A stretch of 61,828 nucleotides of DNA from Acetofilamentum sp. (GCA_020721805.1 DYMB01000008.1:1-61828), one strand, 5' to 3'; shown: positions 15,291 through 61,235, counted from the stretch's first letter. Notes: generated by a model from the sequence alone, not told the origin. Translations and numbers: made by a program.

Positions 15291-16001
15291 TTATGATCTT
15301 GCAAAAGTTATTGCCAGAATCTGTTTTATAGAATAATCTTTTTTTAATATTTCCGATGCATCTGATAAAGTCTTCCCCGTTGTAAAAACATCATCAACAA
15401 TAAGAATCTTTTCACAATGGAAATTTTTTTTTAAGGAATAGAACATCTTTTTTCTCTTTTTTCTTAAAAATAAGGGTAATTTTGCCTGAGAAATAAAAGT
15501 TTCATATTGCCCGATTAAATCGGAAATTAAGGGAATACCTGTTAAATCTGAAATATTTTTGGCAAGTAAAAAAGATTGGTTGTAATACCTGTTGAATTTT
15601 TTAAAAAAAGATTGAGGTATAAAAGTTATAAAATCAACATCCTGAAGTCTACTCTCACTCAATATTTTCATATACATTGAATTCGAAATGAAATCACCTA
15701 TATATTTTACATTTTTATATTTAAAATACTTTACGAGTTTTGATGTTATATCATCGTAATAATAAACCGATCTTACAAAATCAAAATAAAAATCATTTTT
15801 TTTACAATCTTCACAAAGATCCTCATTTTTACCATCGATAGGTCTACCACATTTTTGACACAAAGAGCCACTCACAAATTTTAATTTTGAAAAACATTCC
15901 ACACACAATGGGATATCCTTCATCATCTTTGAACTTTTACATACAACACAGTTGTCAGGGAAAAGAATTTGGAATGGATTACCAATATTTATATTTTTCA
16001 A
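15291..16001 (-). CDS. ComF-family phosphoribosyltransferase-like protein
   Basis: 236 residues. The N-terminus holds a zinc-ribbon-like cluster (CVVCKS, CVECF, CQKCGRP, CEDCKK). The C-terminal half is a type I PRTase fold with the PRPP-loop motif KILIVDDVFTTGKTLSDA. This is the standard ComF/GntX architecture. In naturally competent bacteria ComF is needed for DNA uptake, while GntX homologues act elsewhere, so competence is a possibility rather than a conclusion. It overlaps rodA upstream by 23 bases and ends five bases from tRNA-Leu on the other strand. Confidence 0.9.
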   Translation of the reverse strand: MKNINIGNPFQILFPDNCVVCKSSKMMKDIPLCVECFSKLKFVSGSLCQKCGRPIDGKNEDLCEDCKKNDFYFDFVRSVYYYDDITSKLVKYFKYKNVKYIGDFISNSMYMKILSESRLQDVDFITFIPQSFFKKFNRYYNQSFLLAKNISDLTGIPLISDLIGQYETFISQAKLPLFLRKKRKKMFYSLKKNFHCEKILIVDDVFTTGKTLSDASEILKKDYSIKQILAITFARS

Positions 16002-33225: not shown

Positions 33226-34137
33226 TTATTTTAAAATTTCTTTGAGTTTTAAATCTTCTGAAAATCTTTCTTCAAATAGTGTTACAGAGTTTACACTATA
33301 ATTTACAATTTTACCATAATCATCAACATTCAAAATTATTCTATCAAAACTTGATAATTCTCCATAACCTTTCATTATTATAGTATGATTTTTCGGAGTC
33401 TCTATATTCTCTCTTAACCCTGCCCCATCAAAACCACCAAGGATTATATCTATTCCTTTTACAGTTTCGGCAAGTATTTTATCATGTTCAAGTCCTATCG
33501 ATGTCAGAGCGATTATTATCGAGCATCTATTATTTTTGAGTAGTTCAACCATCATAGATGCGGTTTCTATCTCTTTTTGGATAACATACTTTTCAAGAAT
33601 TTCATCCGATAAATTTAAGAGAGCGAATTCAGTTAAAAGACCGAATACTCCAATCCTTATGCCTTCTTTCTCTATGATATGAAATTTTACTGGCTGAAAA
33701 TCGCTATCAACTATACTAAGGTTGGATGACAACAAAACGGGTTTAAACAGATCACTTGCGCCTTTAAGATATTCGGGACCAGCAACTATTTCATCAAGAC
33801 CTATGTTAACAACATCGTAACCCATATGATTGAAATAGATTGAAGGTTTAACAAAATCCACAGAATCGTTATTTATGTTTTTGTAAACAAAATTCCCTGA
33901 ATCGAACAAAAGAAAGATTGAGCCTTTTTTCAACGCTTTATCCTTTTCCATCTTTACAGCGGTCGAAAGAGAATGTATGCCACCAAGAACAGGTGGAAAA
34001 TCTGGGTTTATAAAAGTAGCCTCTCTGGGCTGCAGAACATTTCTTATATCATTAGTATGTATTATCACTATCTCTTTTGAAATTAAAAAAGAACTTATCA
34101 GTAAGAAAAAAACAAAAATAAAGAGTAATCTATTCAT
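33226..34137 (-). CDS. Exported 5'-nucleotidase-like protein, apparently without metal ligands
   Basis: 303 residues. A signal peptide (residues 1-19) precedes a metallophosphatase fold like that of UshA/YfkN enzymes: IVIIHTNDIRNVLQP, FLLFDSGNFV, VVNIGLDEI, VFGLLTEFA, DIILGGFDG. In active members these blocks read TND-x-H, D-x-GD, GNHE and GGHTH. Here Arg32 replaces the His, Asn82 replaces the Asp, the NH of GNHE is Leu-Asp, and both late His are gone. The C-terminal nucleotide-binding domain of UshA is also absent. It is therefore probably a non-catalytic binding or structural protein. It is co-oriented with the two PLD genes. Confidence 0.75.
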   Translation of the reverse strand: MNRLLFIFVFFLLISSFLISKEIVIIHTNDIRNVLQPREATFINPDFPPVLGGIHSLSTAVKMEKDKALKKGSIFLLFDSGNFVYKNINNDSVDFVKPSIYFNHMGYDVVNIGLDEIVAGPEYLKGASDLFKPVLLSSNLSIVDSDFQPVKFHIIEKEGIRIGVFGLLTEFALLNLSDEILEKYVIQKEIETASMMVELLKNNRCSIIIALTSIGLEHDKILAETVKGIDIILGGFDGAGLRENIETPKNHTIIMKGYGELSSFDRIILNVDDYGKIVNYSVNSVTLFEERFSEDLKLKEILK

Positions 34138-34147
34138 CTTTAACCTC

Positions 34148-34711
34148 TTAAAAAACTGTTATGTTTTCAGATGATCTTTTAAAAACATCATTAAAAAACT
34201 CTTCAAAAATTTTAGCAAGTGAATCGGATTTTATCAAGATGGATGCTTCATTATTTTTATCGAGTGCATAATAACTCCAATTCGTTGATCCAACTATAAT
34301 AAAAATTGAATCGATTATTATCGTCTTGGCATGCAATGTCACCTCCGGATCGTCATAAAAAACCTTAACACCACCCTTTTTCAAATACTCTCCAAGATCC
34401 TTGTTTCTTTGACTCTGCGAAGGATTGAAACCAGATTGATCAAGAATTATCTTTACATCAACATTTCTTTTTACAGCATCAAAAAGTTCATCATACAATT
34501 TCTGGTTTATACCATCAACTCTTTCAGGATAATAACCACCTTCAAGCATGATTATATGAATTGTCTTTTTTGAATCCTTTATCAGTTTGATCAAATTTTT
34601 GGTATAATCTCTATTGTTTAAAGGAAGTGCGCCCTCTACGGGTAAAAAATTTAATTCCTCAGTAAAAAGATTCAAAGAGATAAGAATGAAAATAATAAAT
34701 ATCTTTTTCAT
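34148..34711 (-). CDS. Exported phospholipase D superfamily protein, Nuc-like (single HKD)
   Basis: 187 residues. A signal peptide (1-17) is followed by one PLD domain with the active-site motif His127-x-Lys129-x4-Asp134 and then GSTNWSYYAL. A single HKD in a protein of about 170 mature residues matches the bacterial endonuclease Nuc, which works as a dimer, rather than the double-HKD phospholipases. The expected location is periplasm or outside. A nuclease role is inference. It is a tandem paralogue of the next gene upstream; the two share the LPV-x-G start, RDYT, the ILDQS block and GSTNWS. Confidence 0.82.
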   Translation of the reverse strand: MKKIFIIFILISLNLFTEELNFLPVEGALPLNNRDYTKNLIKLIKDSKKTIHIIMLEGGYYPERVDGINQKLYDELFDAVKRNVDVKIILDQSGFNPSQSQRNKDLGEYLKKGGVKVFYDDPEVTLHAKTIIIDSIFIIVGSTNWSYYALDKNNEASILIKSDSLAKIFEEFFNDVFKRSSENITVF

Positions 34712-34715
34712 TTTT

Positions 34716-35291
34716 TTACTCTGTTATTGTTAAGGTATCAGATTTCAGCATTAAAAGTTTTTCAAAAAATTTTTCATATTTTAATGCGATATCTTTAGAT
34801 TTGACCGCTATAGAACATTCATCGTTTTTTGCAAGAGCATAAAAACTCCAGTTTGTTGAACCAACAACAGTTATAAGTGAATCTACAACAACATATTTCA
34901 TATGTGTTGTAATGTCTGGCATATCGAAATAAACTTTTATACCAAATTTTCTCATAAACTCTGCATATTCAAGATTTTTTAAGGAGAGAGATGGATTCCA
35001 GGAAGATTGATCTAAAATTATTATCACATCAACACCTCTTTTTGCAGCATCTATCAAAGAATTTTGTAATTCGGTTGGTTCACCCTCAGGATAATCTGGA
35101 TAGTATCCAGCTTGATATATAACAGCATGTATCGTTTTGTTTGAATTGTTTATGATCTTGATCATTGTAGGTGTGTAATCTCTACCGTTCATAGGAATTA
35201 CACCATCAACAGGCAACAGATCAAGTTTCTCCGTTTGAGAAAAACAAAATAAAAAATAGAATAACGATAAATTTAATAATAATTTTTTCAT
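34716..35291 (-). CDS. Exported phospholipase D superfamily protein, Nuc-like (tandem paralogue)
   Basis: 191 residues: a signal peptide (1-19), then one PLD domain with His130-x-Lys132-x4-Asp137 and GSTNWSFYAL. It is clearly related to the downstream gene over the whole length, so the pair arose by duplication. Each copy keeps a complete HKD motif. Spacing is four bases downstream and seven bases upstream to the barrel gene, so it is part of one transcript. No membrane anchor beyond the signal peptide is seen. Confidence 0.82.
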   Translation of the reverse strand: MKKLLLNLSLFYFLFCFSQTEKLDLLPVDGVIPMNGRDYTPTMIKIINNSNKTIHAVIYQAGYYPDYPEGEPTELQNSLIDAAKRGVDVIIILDQSSWNPSLSLKNLEYAEFMRKFGIKVYFDMPDITTHMKYVVVDSLITVVGSTNWSFYALAKNDECSIAVKSKDIALKYEKFFEKLLMLKSDTLTITE

Positions 35292-35298
35292 AAATTCC

Positions 35299-36459
35299 TC
35301 AAAACTTCATAGAAACATCAAGAATCATTTTAAGGACTCTTTCGTTATAGTAAACATTCTCTTTTTCATAGTTGATATTATTATACTGAGTTGAAACTGT
35401 AAATTCAGTTTTTTCAATTCTGTAAATAAGACCCGTTGTAAATCCAATATCAACGATCCTGTTATCTTTTCTGTATGGTTTATACATAAAACCATAAAGA
35501 AGTGAAAGATTTCTGTTTAAGGTGTGTGAAACACCAAGATTATATTTTATAAGATCATTGTAATCATAAAAATCTCCATTCAATTCACTCCATCTTTCAT
35601 ATGTTGCGGTAAGATAGAAATCTGCTGGAGCAACACCTGAAGCTCTGTATCTGAAACCAAAGGAAAATATATTTGGTAGAATATAATATACCGTCTTTGT
35701 ATTAACAATAGTATCAGTCGCGCTTATCTCCTCTACCCTATTGATGGTCAAATATGTTTGAATGTCATAAACAAAGGTAAAACTAAGAAAATCTTTTAAA
35801 TCATATGATATCCCGAGATTCCCTTTTATACCAGAATAGTTTTCATTTATTGTTGATAACGAATCAACTAAAGAGGGATCAACATAAAGTATGGAATAGT
35901 TATCGGAACCATCACCCTGTAAGATTGAAAAATTTGTTCCAAGAGTAAAATTAAAAAACCTGTAGTTAAGAGAAAGGAAATAAGAGTTCACATTACCAAT
36001 TTTAATCCAACTTTCATCGTAAAGGGTTATGTAGTTATCATCCCTGTATATTTGTCTGAAAGTATAATCATTATTGATATAATTTTCATAACCCAGATAC
36101 AATCCGAACCTATTTATTGGCATATATCCAATTATGTATGCTGGTTCACCATAAAGAAACGAATTATCATATATATTCTTTTTCGCTATACTATTCTCAT
36201 AAGAATCGAACACATATTTTGATCTTGTTTCCCTTGTTGAAAGTCCCAAAAAACCGAGTGCGATAAAATAGTTTTCCGTTTTACAATCTATGGTTGGATT
36301 CAAAAGTGGGTTGAAGAAAAAATCGTTGTCTCCAAGTCCGGCACCCTTCGCTGTTAAGGCAATATTAAAATCCGAAAGATTTTCATTATATAAGGAAACA
36401 TATGAGAAAATTTGCAAATAGAGAAAAAGAAAAATAAAAAACAAAATGGTTCTTTTCAT
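35299..36459 (-). CDS. Outer-membrane beta-barrel protein (PorV/FadL-like outline)
   Basis: About 386 residues: a signal peptide followed by many alternating strands rich in Tyr, Asn and Phe, such as FGLYLGYENYINNDYTF and FNFTLGTNFSI, ending in the strand MILDVSMKF with a terminal Phe, the usual barrel-assembly signal. An early AKGAGLGDNDFFFNPLLNP block recalls the start of PorV/PorQ and FadL-like barrels. The ATG at 36459 is four bases from AGGAGG; longer starts overlap the ribosome-binding site. It lies between the PLD pair and the HhH-barrel gene. Substrate unknown. Confidence 0.65.
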   Translation of the reverse strand: MKRTILFFIFLFLYLQIFSYVSLYNENLSDFNIALTAKGAGLGDNDFFFNPLLNPTIDCKTENYFIALGFLGLSTRETRSKYVFDSYENSIAKKNIYDNSFLYGEPAYIIGYMPINRFGLYLGYENYINNDYTFRQIYRDDNYITLYDESWIKIGNVNSYFLSLNYRFFNFTLGTNFSILQGDGSDNYSILYVDPSLVDSLSTINENYSGIKGNLGISYDLKDFLSFTFVYDIQTYLTINRVEEISATDTIVNTKTVYYILPNIFSFGFRYRASGVAPADFYLTATYERWSELNGDFYDYNDLIKYNLGVSHTLNRNLSLLYGFMYKPYRKDNRIVDIGFTTGLIYRIEKTEFTVSTQYNNINYEKENVYYNERVLKMILDVSMKF

Positions 36460-36467
36460 CATTCCTC

Positions 36468-38891
36468 CTACCATCTGACATCTACTTGACATGATATACC
36501 AAAAAGATTCTTATATTCGCTAAAATCGGATATTACTTGAAAATCTGAATCTATATATCTATAATTACTCTGAAAATTAGATATACCGGAAAAAGTGTTC
36601 TCCTGATTCTTTAAAGATAATTTCAAACGCATCGCAAGAATGTTTGAAATCCTGTCTATTAATGTTAAATACATCTTGTTTCCATTTCCATAAAGAAAAT
36701 CTATCCCATTATCTTCAAGTATCCACTGACTCATTCCATCCGTTTTCCATGTTGCGAAACCTCCGGTTATGGAAAAATAGTCCGTCAATTTTTTATCATA
36801 ACTAACATTTACAAAAGAGCCATCTATAAAACTATTTTCAAGACTTCCACCTGTTGTAAGTTTTACCATTCCATAACGGGCTTCAAAGTTCAGATAATCA
36901 TTGTTATCGAGAATTGTAAATACCCTTAAAGTTGTCTCATTTGTAAAAGAACTGGTTGAAACTATTCTTTTGTAAATATTTTTTTCTTGAATTTTCTCCT
37001 TCAATCTTATTCTCAGAGGAAAAACGGGTTTAATTTCAATTTCAGTCTGAAACCTGTAATTTAAAAGATCGTAATCGAGTGTCCTCCATACATCAAGATA
37101 AGTATAGTTGAGAGTTATGTTGGAAAGGATTCTGTATCTTGTTTCCAAATAGATACCTTCTTCTGGTTTTGGTCTTGGATCATCCAGGATATATGTGAAT
37201 AATGGATCTATCAGTCTATAAGTTTTTTCAAATTCAGTATCATCATATCTGGATTGTTCGTAAAAAGGCCTTGAATAAAAATTGGTGTATCCAACATCAT
37301 ACCTTCTTATCAATCCCACAAGATAAAAGTTATTATAGACAACCCCGCTTTTTAACACATATGCATAACTTGAATTCTGTCTGGCAATCTCACCCTGAAG
37401 AAAAAGGTTTTTATATGCTGACTGGAAATTTATTCCATAAACCTTTAAACTCTTCCCCTGAAACTCTGTATTATAAACGGGTATGTTAAGATTATCCTTA
37501 TCGAAAGGTATATCTATAGTTAAATTATCCTGTTTAAATTCTTTATCGAATAAAGATGAAAAACCGGAAAAACCGATCTTTGTTACAAGTGGCAAATTAA
37601 AGATTCCACCCATTTTTAAATCTATCTTTCCTCCAATTAATCTTTCAGTATAAACTTCAGAAAAAGATTCTATATAGGTCTTTGTTAAAAATGGTAAATT
37701 AACGGTTGAATCATTGTTTAAAAATCCATCCCTTTTTTTGTAAGAGAAAAATCCAAGATAGTTGAATCTCCATAAATTTCCATCAAAAGCAACCCCCATA
37801 AGATCGTTTGAATATGATTCACTTAAATCAACAAATAAACCGGGACTTCTATTATACATTCTGGTGCTTTTGTTATCCATATTATCAAATAAAATACCCT
37901 GGTTGAGAGTGACTCTATAGTTTCCAACTATAATGTTTTCAATAAAAGGTAGTTTTCTAAGTTGAACATAACCTTTATAATTGTTCTTCATCATCATCGT
38001 ATAATCTGTGAACAAACCACCAAAAGAAAAATGGTCGCCAACATTGAAGATGAATTTATTGTAAAGAAAGGCACCAACCTTTCTTTTTGAAATTTCATCA
38101 TACTCGCTTTCAAGTCTACTTTTAAGGGAATCTATCTGTTCTTCAGTATATCCTACCTGTAAAAGTTTTGTTCTGAGATTTACCGAATCTGGATTTATTA
38201 CCTGAAGTTGAGAGAGCCTGTAATTTAATTCATTTGCAAGTGAAGAATAGGAAGTATAACCATAGGCATCATCATTATAATATTTTATTTTAGTCCTGAA
38301 ATATCCATCAAAATAAAATTTTTCTTTTTTTTGTTCACCATAGGTTATATAATTTCTTAGATTTGTAAAAGCATAATAGGTTAAAAACGGAGCCCTTCTT
38401 AGATCATTCGCATATCTGAACTTTCTGCTTTTTCTTGCCTGTAAAATCGCTTCAACATCGGTTAACCTGACACCGTATATCTGAGATAAATTTTCAGCGG
38501 TCGTAGTGTTTATATCGATTTTTTCAAGTATGAGTCGCTCCCATAACTCTATAGCACCAGTTGTAAAACCATCTTCGCTTGCGAGTTTATCCTGTAACCT
38601 TAAAATATAAATTGGAGTTGAGTCTATAGATTCGGAAGGTCTTAAAATTATCTTATCTTTTAAAATTTCAAATATCTCGTTGTCTACACCATCGATCCTA
38701 TAAAATTCATAAATTGATTTTATCTGTCCATGATCTCTTAAATAAGATTTTATATTTAATATAACCTCGTCAGGTATCAAAAGTGTATCAAGAGCGGATG
38801 GGTCGGTATTGTTTATATCTATCTGAGTATCAGGTATTATTATTAAATTTAAAATGGTTAAAATTGAAACTAAAAGGTATATCTTTTTCAT
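36468..38891 (-). CDS. Two ComEA-like helix-hairpin-helix modules fused to a large outer-membrane barrel
   Basis: 807 residues. A signal peptide (1-20) leads into a helix-hairpin-helix module at about 23-84 (QIDINNTDPSALDTL, then YRIDGVDNEIFEIL) and a second at about 124-183 (KIDINTTTAENLSQIYGVRL, then DVEAILQARKSRKFRY). Both show the DINxxxxxxL-G pattern of ComEA DNA-binding domains. The remaining 600 residues are alternating strands, loops and aromatic girdles, consistent with a beta-barrel. ComEA binds incoming DNA in the periplasm; fusion to a barrel suggests DNA or polysaccharide handling at the outer membrane. Function is inferred. Confidence 0.72.
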   Translation of the reverse strand: MKKIYLLVSILTILNLIIIPDTQIDINNTDPSALDTLLIPDEVILNIKSYLRDHGQIKSIYEFYRIDGVDNEIFEILKDKIILRPSESIDSTPIYILRLQDKLASEDGFTTGAIELWERLILEKIDINTTTAENLSQIYGVRLTDVEAILQARKSRKFRYANDLRRAPFLTYYAFTNLRNYITYGEQKKEKFYFDGYFRTKIKYYNDDAYGYTSYSSLANELNYRLSQLQVINPDSVNLRTKLLQVGYTEEQIDSLKSRLESEYDEISKRKVGAFLYNKFIFNVGDHFSFGGLFTDYTMMMKNNYKGYVQLRKLPFIENIIVGNYRVTLNQGILFDNMDNKSTRMYNRSPGLFVDLSESYSNDLMGVAFDGNLWRFNYLGFFSYKKRDGFLNNDSTVNLPFLTKTYIESFSEVYTERLIGGKIDLKMGGIFNLPLVTKIGFSGFSSLFDKEFKQDNLTIDIPFDKDNLNIPVYNTEFQGKSLKVYGINFQSAYKNLFLQGEIARQNSSYAYVLKSGVVYNNFYLVGLIRRYDVGYTNFYSRPFYEQSRYDDTEFEKTYRLIDPLFTYILDDPRPKPEEGIYLETRYRILSNITLNYTYLDVWRTLDYDLLNYRFQTEIEIKPVFPLRIRLKEKIQEKNIYKRIVSTSSFTNETTLRVFTILDNNDYLNFEARYGMVKLTTGGSLENSFIDGSFVNVSYDKKLTDYFSITGGFATWKTDGMSQWILEDNGIDFLYGNGNKMYLTLIDRISNILAMRLKLSLKNQENTFSGISNFQSNYRYIDSDFQVISDFSEYKNLFGISCQVDVRW

Positions 38892-38899
38892 TTAAACTC

Positions 38900-39778
38900 C
38901 TAAAAAGTATAAGATAGTTGAATATGGTTTCTTGATGGAAGATTGAAAACGGTTGAGTAACCATAATCGATACTTAACTTTTTAATATAAAGCCTGAAGC
39001 CTAAACCAAAAGTTGTTGGAAAACTTCTTAATCCAGAATAGATCGAAAAAAGATTTTTTGCCAGATCGTAATCTACAGAGAATCCAAAAGATGTTGGCTG
39101 GGATGAAATTTTTGAAACATCAAAACTAGTTATAAGAGTTTCATAAGGTTTAAATGTGAGTCCTCCAGAAACTTTTCTTGTTAAATAGTATCTTTCACTA
39201 TTCAAAGAACTGTTGATGGCGGTGTTGGTGATGTTCGTTATCGATATGCCCATAAACCATCTATCATAAATTTTTCCAATCATACCTATGTCCGCAGTAT
39301 AATATATGTTGTTGTTATCAGTGACACCTATCAGTTTTTGTTCAAGATAAAGAAAGTTGACATTGGTTCCAATCATAATGTTATCATTAAAATCTAGTCC
39401 ATAGGTTAGTTGAACAACCCTTTCGGTCTGTAATCTTGTATTTTCTGTTATTATTGAATCCTGGTCAGAGTGATCACCTACAACAAAAAGTTCCGAATAT
39501 TTTAAACCCAAATTACCGTAAGAAGAGCCATAACCACCAGCAATGGAAACAGAGTGAATGAAACGGTAAAGATTTTCATAAGATATGTTAAACTCATACT
39601 TGTTTATACCAGCGATCGATGCTGGATTAACAACAATATTATCTATACCATTTACTATAGCAGTGGTAGCAAGAACCATGGTTCTGGATCTAACATTACC
39701 GGCTATATAATCAAATGAAGCGAATGAAGCTTGAGAAATTCCAAATAGAAAAATGGCAAATAAAAAAAACTTCTTCAT
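38900..39778 (-). CDS. PorV/PorQ-like outer-membrane protein
   Basis: About 292 residues with a signal peptide (FLFAIFLFGISQASFA). The early block VRSRTMVLATTAIVNGIDNI followed by VVNPASIAG matches the PorV/PorQ/UPF0164 outline (a run of small residues, then N-P-A-x-x-x-x-x). Alternating strands follow, ending HIQLSYTF with a terminal Phe. The ATG at 39778 follows AGGGG. In Bacteroidetes such proteins shuttle or anchor type IX secretion cargo; the next gene encodes a protein with a matching sorting domain, so a transport role is plausible. Confidence 0.68.
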   Translation of the reverse strand: MKKFFLFAIFLFGISQASFASFDYIAGNVRSRTMVLATTAIVNGIDNIVVNPASIAGINKYEFNISYENLYRFIHSVSIAGGYGSSYGNLGLKYSELFVVGDHSDQDSIITENTRLQTERVVQLTYGLDFNDNIMIGTNVNFLYLEQKLIGVTDNNNIYYTADIGMIGKIYDRWFMGISITNITNTAINSSLNSERYYLTRKVSGGLTFKPYETLITSFDVSKISSQPTSFGFSVDYDLAKNLFSIYSGLRSFPTTFGLGFRLYIKKLSIDYGYSTVFNLPSRNHIQLSYTF

Positions 39779-39789
39779 TTTTACCCCTA

Positions 39790-41763
39790 TCATTTTAATT
39801 TTGTCGAAATTACAAGAGGTTTGTTAACACTCTTTAGATAACCTTTATCATCTATCTTTGCAACATTAAGTATATAAACACCGGGTGAACATTTTGAACC
39901 ATACTTATTTTTACCATCCCATATCAGGGTTGTTGATCCGGATTGATTCTCTGCTAAAGTTACAATGTGCCTACCATTTATATCAAATATTTTTACTGTA
40001 AACTTTTCAATGTTAAGTCCTCCCACCTCAATTCTCAAAACCTGACCATAATCAGTTGAAAAAGGATTGGGAAAAGTTTTAACCGAGAATGTTGTATCAT
40101 CAGGATTCTCTATTATTTCAAGATCGGATAACTTTCTAACAAGTAACTGATAACCTGATTTATATGGTGTTGTGTTATCATATTGACCACCTATGCCTGT
40201 TACATTTATAAGTTTACCTGAGACGAGTTGACTCATTATTGGATCCGAATACAATCCTGTCGATTCATTTATTCTAACATCTATAACGGAAAATCCATTT
40301 TGAATTTGAAAATTTTTTCCAGTCCCTGCATCAACTGGTAAAGTTAAAATTTTACCGTAGGAAACTTTTAAAAGTCTACCTTCGTTAATCTCTGATACAC
40401 CCTGTGAATTTGTTAATATAGTTGGTTCAACAAATGATATGGTATCGTTTATAAAATATATATCGGTATCGGGTGAAGAATATTTTATTTCAGTTAATCC
40501 GTTGTATTCTGTTACAGTTCCTCTCAAAAAGATCTCAAAACCTTCCTTAAAACTTGTGTTGAAAGGATCGTTTGATGAGTAAACATTTACTCCACCCGTT
40601 TCATCCTGAATGTAAAATCCTGTCGATGTTGAAGTTGGAGAAAAAACTTTTGCACCACCTGTTACAATTCCCTTCACAACAACAACCTGTCCAACATATT
40701 TAGAATTATATCCATCGCTTGTTGATTGAACTTCAGATATATCGATAACATTCTCAAAGGGAATTTTTTTTAAAACAGAAAAATTTTTTGCTGGTAATAA
40801 AAGCGTGGAATCAACTCCAGAATAGAATTTAATGGTATCCTCTTTTGTAAAGAAATAATTCTTAACATAAATTTTTAGTGTATCTTTAAAAGAGATATTG
40901 TTAATATTCAGGATAGTTGATGTTGCTGTTGTATCAAAAAATATTTTTGTAGAATCAAAATTTAAAAGTGAACTATCACATAAGACTTTTATGGAATCTA
41001 TCGATAGTTTCTGGTTTAAAGTGAGTTTTAAATATTTCACATATCCATAGATCGTATCGACATCTGGAATAATATCTATCCGTATATTGTTATACGAAGA
41101 ATCGCTGAAGAATTTTGGATTCACATTTATATACCCTGAACCATCTATCGATTTTAAAGCATCACTATCACCAAAAGGTTTCAACTCATATTTACCATTA
41201 TATTCATCCATACATCCTCTTATGAAAATAAATGTATCGTTTAAAGATTCAGTGGTTACAGGATAACTGTTATCCTCATATATGACCAACTCGCCCGATC
41301 CATCATCAACGTTCCATTCTCTAGAAGATGTTATCTGGGTTACTACGCAGTTTTGAACCTGGACAAACATTCCTTCCCATTTTTCTTGACTCGCTTCACC
41401 GGTTGATATTATAACCGGTCCTGGGATTTTTCTATCTTTTGCAAGTATCGTTAAAGATGTGGGATTTGAAATTTCAGTTTTTCCATTGTATTCTACAACC
41501 TGCCCGGTAACAGTTACAGAGTCACCAACCTCTACGGGGGTTGGTGGATTGTAGATAAGTAGACCATGCCAGGGCAAAGTATCATCCTGAATGTAAGCGT
41601 TAACTCCAAAAACTCTAGTTACTATACCTGTTGTTGTAACAGTTTGTCCTTCGTATGGAGATGAGCCAGAGATATTTTGTGTGTATTGGATATCATATAT
41701 TGAAGTGGAAAAAGAAAAAAGAAAAAAACAAAAGAGTGAAATCAAAAATAGATAAAATTTCAT
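39790..41763 (-). CDS. Secreted protein with ExeM/YhcR-type OB folds and a C-terminal Por/FlgD-like sorting domain
   Basis: 657 residues. A signal peptide (1-19) is followed by OB-fold units of the kind that precede extracellular nucleases ExeM and YhcR. One is at about 22-105 (GQTVTTTGIVTRVFGVNAYI, QDDTLPWHGLLIYN, VGDSVTVTGQVVEYNGKTEI); another is at about 345-430 (KGIVTGG, GFYIQDETGGVNVYS, RGTVTEYNGLTEI). No nuclease domain is attached. The last 95 residues (FPNPFS, FDINGRHI, LIWDGKNKYG, SPGVYILN) form the FlgD-like Ig fold used as a sorting tail. Probably a surface or extracellular nucleic-acid-binding protein. Confidence 0.8.
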   Translation of the reverse strand: MKFYLFLISLFCFFLFSFSTSIYDIQYTQNISGSSPYEGQTVTTTGIVTRVFGVNAYIQDDTLPWHGLLIYNPPTPVEVGDSVTVTGQVVEYNGKTEISNPTSLTILAKDRKIPGPVIISTGEASQEKWEGMFVQVQNCVVTQITSSREWNVDDGSGELVIYEDNSYPVTTESLNDTFIFIRGCMDEYNGKYELKPFGDSDALKSIDGSGYINVNPKFFSDSSYNNIRIDIIPDVDTIYGYVKYLKLTLNQKLSIDSIKVLCDSSLLNFDSTKIFFDTTATSTILNINNISFKDTLKIYVKNYFFTKEDTIKFYSGVDSTLLLPAKNFSVLKKIPFENVIDISEVQSTSDGYNSKYVGQVVVVKGIVTGGAKVFSPTSTSTGFYIQDETGGVNVYSSNDPFNTSFKEGFEIFLRGTVTEYNGLTEIKYSSPDTDIYFINDTISFVEPTILTNSQGVSEINEGRLLKVSYGKILTLPVDAGTGKNFQIQNGFSVIDVRINESTGLYSDPIMSQLVSGKLINVTGIGGQYDNTTPYKSGYQLLVRKLSDLEIIENPDDTTFSVKTFPNPFSTDYGQVLRIEVGGLNIEKFTVKIFDINGRHIVTLAENQSGSTTLIWDGKNKYGSKCSPGVYILNVAKIDDKGYLKSVNKPLVISTKLK

Positions 41764-59293: not shown

Positions 59294-60150
59294 TTAATAT
59301 ACCTCACAGGATAAAGATATCCATCTTTTATTTTAATCATCATATATGCACCTTTTTTTACAGAAAAATAAATTCCATTTTCAAACCCATTCATCTTAAC
59401 AATCTGTCCATTTGTCAACCTTTCAAAAATTTTTTCCTCCACTTTAATTTTTTTATAAAAATTTTTCAATATCTCTTCAGGATTATATGTATCAAACTCG
59501 GTTATCTCTTCTATACTCTTGGATTCATCTATTTCAAAAAAACAATTTTTCAGCCTTTTCAATTTAACTACGGTTGCATAATTATCGAACCTTTCAGCCA
59601 GTTCAATCGCAAACGATCTCACATAAAAACCTTTTTTTACAAGTAACTCTATTTCAAGAAATTCTTTATCAAAATTTATAATTTTGAAATCAATTAATTT
59701 CACCATCTTTTTTCTTTTTTCGATCTGTACTCCTTTCCTTGCAATTTTATATGACCTCACACCATTTATTTTTGTTGCAGAATAAGGAGGTATTATCTGA
59801 TTTCTTTCACCTTTAAAATGTTCTTCGATCATCTTCTCTATCTCTTCTTTCTCTAAACTGGGAATACTTTTTTTCTTTAAAATCTTTCCGGTAAAATCAA
59901 AAGTATCGGTAAGGATACCGAATTGTATAACCGCCAAATATTTTTTTTCAGAATCTTCAAGAAAATGGATCAACTTTGTATAATCACCTGAAAAAATAGG
60001 TAAAACACCTGATGCGAAAGGATCGAGTGTTCCCAGAAAACCGCACTTTCTTTCTTTAAATCTTCTTCTAAACCCTCTAACTATTTCAAAGGATGGGATA
60101 TTTTCTTCTTTATAGATGTTTAGTATAAGATTTCTTTTTTCGCCTACCAC
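59290..60150 (-). CDS. truB: tRNA pseudouridine(55) synthase TruB
   Basis: 286 residues. The catalytic Asp is in GTLDPFASGVLP. Further family blocks are PPYSATKINGVRSYKIARKG, LLVKKGFYVRSFAIELAE and a C-terminal PUA-like segment (RLTNGQIVKMNG). The residue before GTLDP that is almost always His in the GHxGTLDP motif is Phe here (KCGFLGTLDP). The N-terminal DKP-type loop is also shortened (LNIYKEENIPSFE). It converts U55 of tRNAs to pseudouridine; activity should be checked because of the His change. It overlaps the PorV-like gene by seven bases. Confidence 0.9.
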   Translation of the reverse strand: MVGEKRNLILNIYKEENIPSFEIVRGFRRRFKERKCGFLGTLDPFASGVLPIFSGDYTKLIHFLEDSEKKYLAVIQFGILTDTFDFTGKILKKKSIPSLEKEEIEKMIEEHFKGERNQIIPPYSATKINGVRSYKIARKGVQIEKRKKMVKLIDFKIINFDKEFLEIELLVKKGFYVRSFAIELAERFDNYATVVKLKRLKNCFFEIDESKSIEEITEFDTYNPEEILKNFYKKIKVEEKIFERLTNGQIVKMNGFENGIYFSVKKGAYMMIKIKDGYLYPVRYIK

Positions 60151-61235
60151 CTAAATCCAACTGAAATTCTATAATTCGTTGTCTCAAAATCGTAGATATC
60201 TGAATCTACTGCAAGATCGAGTCTAAAATTGGTTTTCACAAAAAGTCCACCACCGAAAGTGAATCCCATTCTCTGTCCATAATAATCAAGGAAATAGCCT
60301 AACCTTAAAGCGAGTAGATTATAATAGATATACTCTATACCTGCCCCTATCCATGTATCAAGGAATTCTGCTTCAAGCATCGATAATTTAACAGGTTCAT
60401 TTGTTAGAGTATCTATTATCCTTTCGTTATACTTGTCAATAATCTTTGAAATTTCAAATTTAAAATCTGATGATGATAGAGAATCGAGATTTATTCCAGC
60501 GATGACTTTTGTTAAATCGGTTGTGAAGATAAGTTTGTTCAACTGGTTTTCAATTATTTTGTAGGAAAAACCAACTCTTAAAGTTGCGGGAAGATCATCC
60601 GTGGAACCATTGGCAAGATATTTTAATCCCGGTCCAAGATTGGATAAAGAAACTCCAAGGGAAATCCTGTCACCGAATTTTTTCATAAAACCAAAATCGA
60701 GTGCTATGGATTGTCCCTGTCCACCTCTCTCTTCTCCCAAATACTTTTGAATTATCCAGTCGGGTGCTAGAAAAGAATAGATAAATTTGCCGGAAATACC
60801 AACAGACATATCAGTTTTTATCCTGTAAGAGTAAGAAAGATTAAGAGCAAGATCAAAGGTTGTCCATATGGCGGTTGGGTCATTATTCTCTTCTGCTGAA
60901 ATTTCTCCAGCAGTGAGATAAACTATACTTCCACCCCATACACCATATTTTGTTGGAAAAACACCGGCAAAAAACTCATAATACATATCATTTCCAAAGC
61001 CTCTTAACCATGGAGCATGCATAAGTACTATATCTCTTTTTTCCTGCAAACCCATCCCCGCAGGATTATAATAGGTAGCAAGTGCATCATCAGAAATAGC
61101 GGTATAAGAATTACCAAGGGAAACAGCCCTTGATCCTGGATAGATCAAAAGAAAAACAGCACCTGCCTGGGAGGCGGTTGAAAAGATTAGTACGTATGTA
61201 AAGAACAATATAAAAACTATAAAAATTTTTTTCAT
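60144..61235 (-). CDS. PorV/PorQ-type outer-membrane protein
   Basis: 363 residues. The signal peptide ends at ASQA. The block PGSRAVSLGNSYTAISDDAL followed by ATYYNPAGMG is the PorV/UPF0164 signature and matches better than that of the copy at 39 kb. Alternating barrel strands follow, ending NYRISVGFRW. In type IX secretion PorV recruits cargo and the sortase PorU; other members act as lipid or aromatic channels. A secreted protein with a sorting tail is encoded at 39.8-41.8 kb. It has its own promoter directly downstream of rpmB, and AGGAG lies before the ATG. Confidence 0.82.
   Translation of the reverse strand: MKKIFIVFILFFTYVLIFSTASQAGAVFLLIYPGSRAVSLGNSYTAISDDALATYYNPAGMGLQEKRDIVLMHAPWLRGFGNDMYYEFFAGVFPTKYGVWGGSIVYLTAGEISAEENNDPTAIWTTFDLALNLSYSYRIKTDMSVGISGKFIYSFLAPDWIIQKYLGEERGGQGQSIALDFGFMKKFGDRISLGVSLSNLGPGLKYLANGSTDDLPATLRVGFSYKIIENQLNKLIFTTDLTKVIAGINLDSLSSSDFKFEISKIIDKYNERIIDTLTNEPVKLSMLEAEFLDTWIGAGIEYIYYNLLALRLGYFLDYYGQRMGFTFGGGLFVKTNFRLDLAVDSDIYDFETTNYRISVGFRW

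Follow-up and report, generated by a model that had tools for sequence, protein, structure and literature searches.

The window analysed here, a 61,828-nucleotide stretch of DNA from Acetofilamentum sp. (GCA_020721805.1 DYMB01000008.1:1-61828), carries on its minus strand a run of seven ORFs extending from position 41763 to 33226, with spacings of -25 to +10 nt between consecutive ORFs. In order of transcription these are:

39790..41763, minus strand: OBF657, an exported surface protein with OB-fold domains, a DUF5689-like region and a T9SS-type C-terminal sorting domain
38900..39793, minus strand: PorV297, a divergent PorV-family outer-membrane barrel
36468..38891, minus strand: HhH-barrel, with a signal peptide, two ComEA-type HhH domains, a helical insert and a large outer-membrane beta-barrel
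35299..36492, minus strand: barrel397, a FadL-family barrel of the 14-strand type with BamG as its closest fold
34716..35291, minus strand: PLD191, a predicted exported single-HKD phosphodiesterase of the PLD family
34148..34711, minus strand: PLD187, a second exported single-HKD PLD protein
33226..34137, minus strand: NTase303, a pseudo-5'-nucleotidase consisting of the metallophosphatase-like half only

A hydrophobic N-terminal signal sequence can be read in all seven proteins, and the first-pass annotation of this DNA, which described seven contiguous, tightly spaced genes for exported proteins, agrees with the ORF map. The limits of the cassette were set by comparative genomics, because the gene run extends beyond it on both flanks (rpoN lies 1 nt ahead of the first cassette ORF, and an aldehyde dehydrogenase gene starts 11 nt past the last) and because promoter and terminator scans of the locus gave signals at chance level only.

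The HhH-barrel was matched in 30 of 60 relatives, a few of these matches being weak or partial. A scan of named genomes with an alignment as query placed it also in records named TA06, Edwardsbacteria, Hydrothermota, Fermentibacteria/Aegiribacteria/Sabulitectum, Latescibacterota and Coatesbacteria; with a single sequence as query, the scan gave no matches. The gene order OBF, PorV, HhH-barrel, FadL-type barrel, enzyme is kept despite differing neighbours, and the cassette recurs with unrelated flanks in WOR-3, TA06, Edwardsbacteria, Fermentibacteria/Aegiribacteria and Latescibacterota. In counts that include related, non-independent genomes, a PorV-like gene lies directly upstream of the HhH-barrel at 68 of the 73 loci with enough flank, a FadL-type barrel directly downstream at 48 of 76, a nucleotidase-like gene no more than four genes away at 43 of 68 (41 of the 46 loci with a FadL-type barrel versus 2 of the 22 without), and an OBF gene is present at 38 of 59. 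These linkages are above chance; the window's whole genome contains only six PorV-family matches. At many HhH-barrel loci, those of the Hydrothermota type, PorV and the HhH-barrel are the only cassette genes and sit among genes for SHMT, pyridoxal synthesis and the like. A shorter form of the HhH-barrel, about 500-690 aa long, is found in families that lack the long form, and beside the long form in some; these proteins align over the HhH and barrel regions, and several have a PorV-family gene just upstream. These genes form a genuine cassette, conserved over great evolutionary depth, whose members have been together for a very long time. Scattering of these genes in relatives, the outcome that the first-pass annotation had held against a shared system, was not what we found, the cassette being kept across candidate phyla.

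PorV297 falls in the PorV family known from Bacteroidota, but its match to NF033709 (PorV_fam) reaches 34 bits, well under the 90-bit cut-off, and the label "PorV-like" holds in this weak sense. A second, strong PorV gene is present elsewhere in the window at 60144-61235 (PF19572, 64 bits; NF033709, 203 bits). The HhH-barrel matches HHH_3 at 40.6 bits, over the gathering score of 27, and one or two HhH matches were found in it by Pfam and NCBIfam. Its AF2 model (pLDDT 82.7, pTM 0.78) combines a barrel of some 24 strands with a helical insert and two HhH domains, which span roughly residues 24-81 and 121-186. Residues 11-189 match EEPD1 in a PDB sequence search and the N-terminal part also matches ComEA, while Foldseek found no close solved fold and returned generic barrels only, such as the FimD usher at a TM of about 0.3. 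The proposed fusion of a barrel to two ComEA-type modules is supported by the model and the EEPD1 match, but the modules are degenerate: none of the four hairpins has the canonical GxG motif in any of the 24 sequences. As far as can be judged from sequence, this weakens the case for DNA binding by the HhH domains of the barrel. HhH1 carries a net negative charge on average over the 24 sequences; only HhH2 is positive, with a mean charge of +3, and it keeps conserved Arg/Lys residues.

No family assignment was found for barrel397 in domain searches. Its AF2 model (pLDDT 82.8) is predicted to be a FadL-type 14-strand barrel, the fold to which BamG belongs, and bears out the earlier description of another barrel; in Foldseek it lies closest to BamG (TM 0.71-0.76; 9hiv_F, 9n2d_B, 9hjm_F), with a TM of 0.59-0.64 to FadL. 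BamG is a BAM subunit in Bacteroidota (PMC12611786), and the likeness is one of several observations that fit an outer-membrane assembly or T9SS-accessory module, in which the barrels would help to export or anchor surface proteins, the HhH domains would make protein-protein contacts and the phosphoesterases would act on lipids or surface polymers. The PorV-family protein, a cargo protein with a C-terminal sorting domain, the degenerate HhH hairpins and the occurrence of lipid hydrolases among single-HKD PLDs are also consistent with it. However, BamG is an essential protein of F. johnsoniae (PMC12611786), whereas barrel397 shares the fold but is tied to the cassette and is not universal, a distribution that argues against a role as a BAM subunit. 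SprA of the T9SS is found in 54 of the 60 relatives, cassette present or not, and 5'-nucleotidases and Nuc-type PLDs fit poorly with secretion. We consider such an assembly role unlikely.

OBF657 had been described as an ExeM/YhcR-type OB protein with a sorting tail, and both the fold and the tail were recovered. Pfam identifies an OB-fold (PF01336, 35.7 bits), and the first OB domain of OBF is similar to the N-terminal region of secreted nucleases of the EEP type; in the PDB, OBF657 matches the C-terminal domain of PorU and the N-terminal part of 9sf8, an EEP nuclease. The ExeM/NucH profile NF033681 scores 60.7 against a cut-off of 300 bits, with its best stretch at profile positions 34-130 of 546. 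Thus, OBF657 shares an N-terminal OB-fold domain with the extracellular nucleases ExeM/NucH and YhcR, but neither Pfam nor NF033681, whose match is confined to the N-terminal stretch, revealed an endonuclease or EEP domain, and the protein ends instead in a T9SS sorting domain. The tail is of the FlgD_ig/Por_Secre_tail type and scores 25.6 bits with TIGR04183, over the cut-off of 23; together with a genome that encodes a T9SS translocon and C25 peptidases, this marks OBF657 as a probable T9SS cargo protein. Residues 338-547 form the DUF5689-like region, which is matched below the cut-off (1.3e-5; 25.6 versus 28.6 bits); likeness to DUF5689 is seen in 9 of 12 OBF members and reaches 4e-14 in relatives.

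PLD191 and PLD187 match PF13091 at 76.7 and 82 bits and each retains an intact HKD motif (HMKYVVVD...GSTN in PLD191), the two genes being a duplication seen in the window's family. All 16 PLD sequences have a single intact HKD and a signal peptide. The nearest solved relatives by phmmer are Nuc (1byr) and MitoPLD/Zucchini, as the "Nuc-like" designation implied, and the window PLDs resemble NucT/Nuc and Zucchini/MitoPLD in being small, exported and built around one HKD motif. They lie nearer to these nucleases than to lipid-only enzymes, which speaks against the earlier worry that they act only on lipids. They differ in being strictly partnered with a pseudo-nucleotidase and in lying far below the cut-off of the NCBIfam NucT equivalog (46.6-52 bits versus 211 or more), so that lipid or other phosphodiester substrates are possible. 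A function in anti-phage defence was rejected, the PADLOC matches amounting to a generic PLD resemblance to DrmC only.

NTase303 shows UshA-like similarity, as first noted, but has lost both the metal site and the C-terminal domain: a Pfam search of its 303 aa gave no match, PF02872, found in sister-lineage copies, is absent, and the checked site residues read DRNLDSFG in place of the DHDNHHHH of intact relatives, so that one of eight is kept. Sister-lineage cassettes encode no PLD and have a 5'-nucleotidase of 503-585 aa with all eight site residues (one copy has a single site change, and a few are cut by contig ends or lengthened by fusion). Like 5'-nucleotidases of the UshA/SoxB type, the sister protein is full-length, with PF00149 and PF02872, whereas the window copy corresponds to the first half only. 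Each of eleven PLD-bearing cassettes, the window's included, encodes a homologue of 274-308 aa in which the C-terminal domain and the metal site are both missing. Eleven further PLD-paired copies lie outside the cassette, in families f2, f7, f8, f9, f22, f29 and f30, and are likewise degenerate; one of these is a partial gene with no readable site, and the PLD-paired homologues are degenerate at 21 of 21 readable sites, in or out of the cassette. They are monophyletic (support 99*), and the switch to PLD with a dead nucleotidase is one change on the HhH-barrel tree; we therefore rejected the idea that PLD repeatedly and independently replaced an active nucleotidase. The loss of the metal site in all PLD-paired copies with a readable site, together with their single clade, indicates that NTase303 is a predicted pseudoenzyme with a standing tie to PLD, plausibly as a binding or regulatory subunit. 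As far as the literature could be searched, the pairing is an undescribed enzyme-pseudoenzyme couple.

The occurrence of PLD-nucleotidase pairs outside the cassette (in f2, f7, f9, f22, f29 and f30) and of PorV-HhH genes without enzymes in other lineages would also be expected if two unrelated modules were involved, one of PorV, HhH-barrel and FadL-type barrel and the other an independent PLD and pseudo-nucleotidase pair that adjoins it in some families. Yet the enzyme slot 3' of the FadL-type barrel is filled, at the same position, either by the PLD-nucleotidase pair or by the homologous intact 5'-nucleotidase, and we regard two independent modules as very unlikely.

Several neighbouring arrangements of nucleotidase and PLD genes were observed in other families. 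In family f13, a separate 5'-nucleotidase-like protein carries a ComEA-type HhH domain at its C-terminus (L207:6273-7976), a fusion that independently links HhH with nucleotide enzymes. At four other f13 loci (L042-L045), a gene for a RecJ-like DHH exonuclease, Pfam-confirmed in L042 and L044, directly follows the intact 5'-nucleotidase of the cassette. Two f2 loci (L229, L230) have two PLD genes and a pseudo-nucleotidase opening a gene run that ends in comEC; as YchF, GreA/B, DnaJ-TPR and a 121-aa gene lie in between, a ComEC-PLD operon was treated as weak.

The window's genome encodes ComEC, DprA, ComEA, a secretin, SprA, C25 peptidases and PorV. Its SprA homologue aligns with an unambiguous member of SprA_N at 26% identity across some 1,800 residues, and there are seven C25 peptidase matches. 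The comF gene noted in the first-pass annotation is real, as a ComF-like gene at 15291-16001, but is not linked to the cassette. ComEC open frames in the 60 relatives fall into two length classes, of about 374-485 aa and 576-831 aa, and the window's genome carries the short class (447-462 aa). Loci L212, L213, L214, L215 and L216 have, at or near the 3' end of the SprA gene, a short ComEA-like HhH gene of about 105-141 aa; this neighbourhood recurs in several families and is absent from the window's genome.

In Riemerella anatipestifer, a DUF5689 protein (RA0C_RS04920), a barrel (RS04915) and an HhH protein (RS02645, with HhH at 236-301) are essential for natural transformation, which also requires ComEC, DprA, ComF and RecA (PMC8459023). 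Likened by domain types, the cassette offers a similar combination of a DUF5689-like surface protein, an outer-membrane barrel and a ComEA-type HhH, in a genome that likewise has ComEC, DprA and a ComF-like gene. The cassette could accordingly be the outer-membrane half of a transformation machine, with the OB/DUF5689 protein and the HhH-barrel importing dsDNA, ComEA and ComEC passing it inward and the PLD module trimming or degrading it. We judge this distinctly unlikely. In Riemerella the HhH protein is separate and the annotation gives the barrel a carboxypeptidase-regulatory domain, whereas here the HhH is fused to a large barrel and accompanied by PorV-like, FadL-like, PLD and 5'-nucleotidase-like partners. 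The window's genome has a separate ComEA that keeps an intact PGVG hairpin. The same genome encodes another separate protein, of 339 aa (L208:6177-7193, G000:C54), which is exported and barrel-like, ends in an HhH and is architecturally nearer to the Riemerella HhH protein. ComEC (57 of 60 relatives), DprA (59 of 60) and a secretin (53 of 60) give no co-occurrence signal with the long HhH-barrel (30 of 60); with these genes and the T9SS all near universal, their correlation with the cassette is uninformative. ComEC and the T9SS occur with or without the cassette, and therefore transformation is not specifically supported over nutrition, while the predicted active 5'-nucleotidase of sister cassettes suggests consumption rather than recombination.

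The reading we prefer, at a probability of a little under one half (about 0.48), is that the cassette encodes outer-membrane machinery for taking DNA or RNA from outside the cell and processing it in the periplasm, most likely as a source of nutrients or phosphorus. Uptake or scavenging of DNA at the outer membrane had been proposed at the outset, and the conserved cassette, the nuclease-like PLDs and the DUF5689-like OB protein favour it. Because the HhH domains are degenerate, the nucleotidase is dead, the OB protein has no nuclease, comF is unlinked and ComEC and T9SS do not track the cassette, we infer uptake or scavenging, as the best reading, from gene content; substrate, transport direction, surface location, nuclease activity and nutritional purpose are likewise what we infer. 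The usual downstream partner of the HhH-barrel is an enzyme for nucleic acids or nucleotides, and since the presence of such enzymes, rather than of ComEC, follows that of the cassette, we rank scavenging above transformation. The many loci with PorV and HhH-barrel only weigh against the reading.

In the scavenging apparatus, OBF657 would serve as the binding subunit at the cell surface, its C-terminal sorting domain probably directing its export by the T9SS. The core of the outer-membrane complex would consist of PorV297 and the HhH-barrel, whose wide barrel would have the double HhH domain on its periplasmic face; the FadL-type barrel would be an accessory. In this genome the enzyme would be a secreted PLD nuclease with one HKD motif, partnered by a 5'-nucleotidase-like protein that does not catalyse; in sister lineages it would be an intact 5'-nucleotidase. 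A more tentative extension, which we think doubtful, is that the HhH-barrel and its PorV-like partner are an undescribed nucleic-acid import channel of several candidate phyla, and that PLD with the pseudo-5'-nucleotidase is a new two-subunit periplasmic nuclease fed by this channel. Literature searches returned no relevant paper joining PorV with ComEA, and none treating WOR-3 together with extracellular DNA and nuclease.

How DNA passes the outer membrane in Gram-negative bacteria without a known dedicated machine is a standing question, especially for uncultured candidate phyla, and DNA that crosses it may serve as food or as genes. The OB surface protein, the HhH-barrel and the PLD with its pseudo-nucleotidase are small enough to be tested one by one. 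That the genes stay together even where their proteins are about 30% identical suggests a single function under selection.
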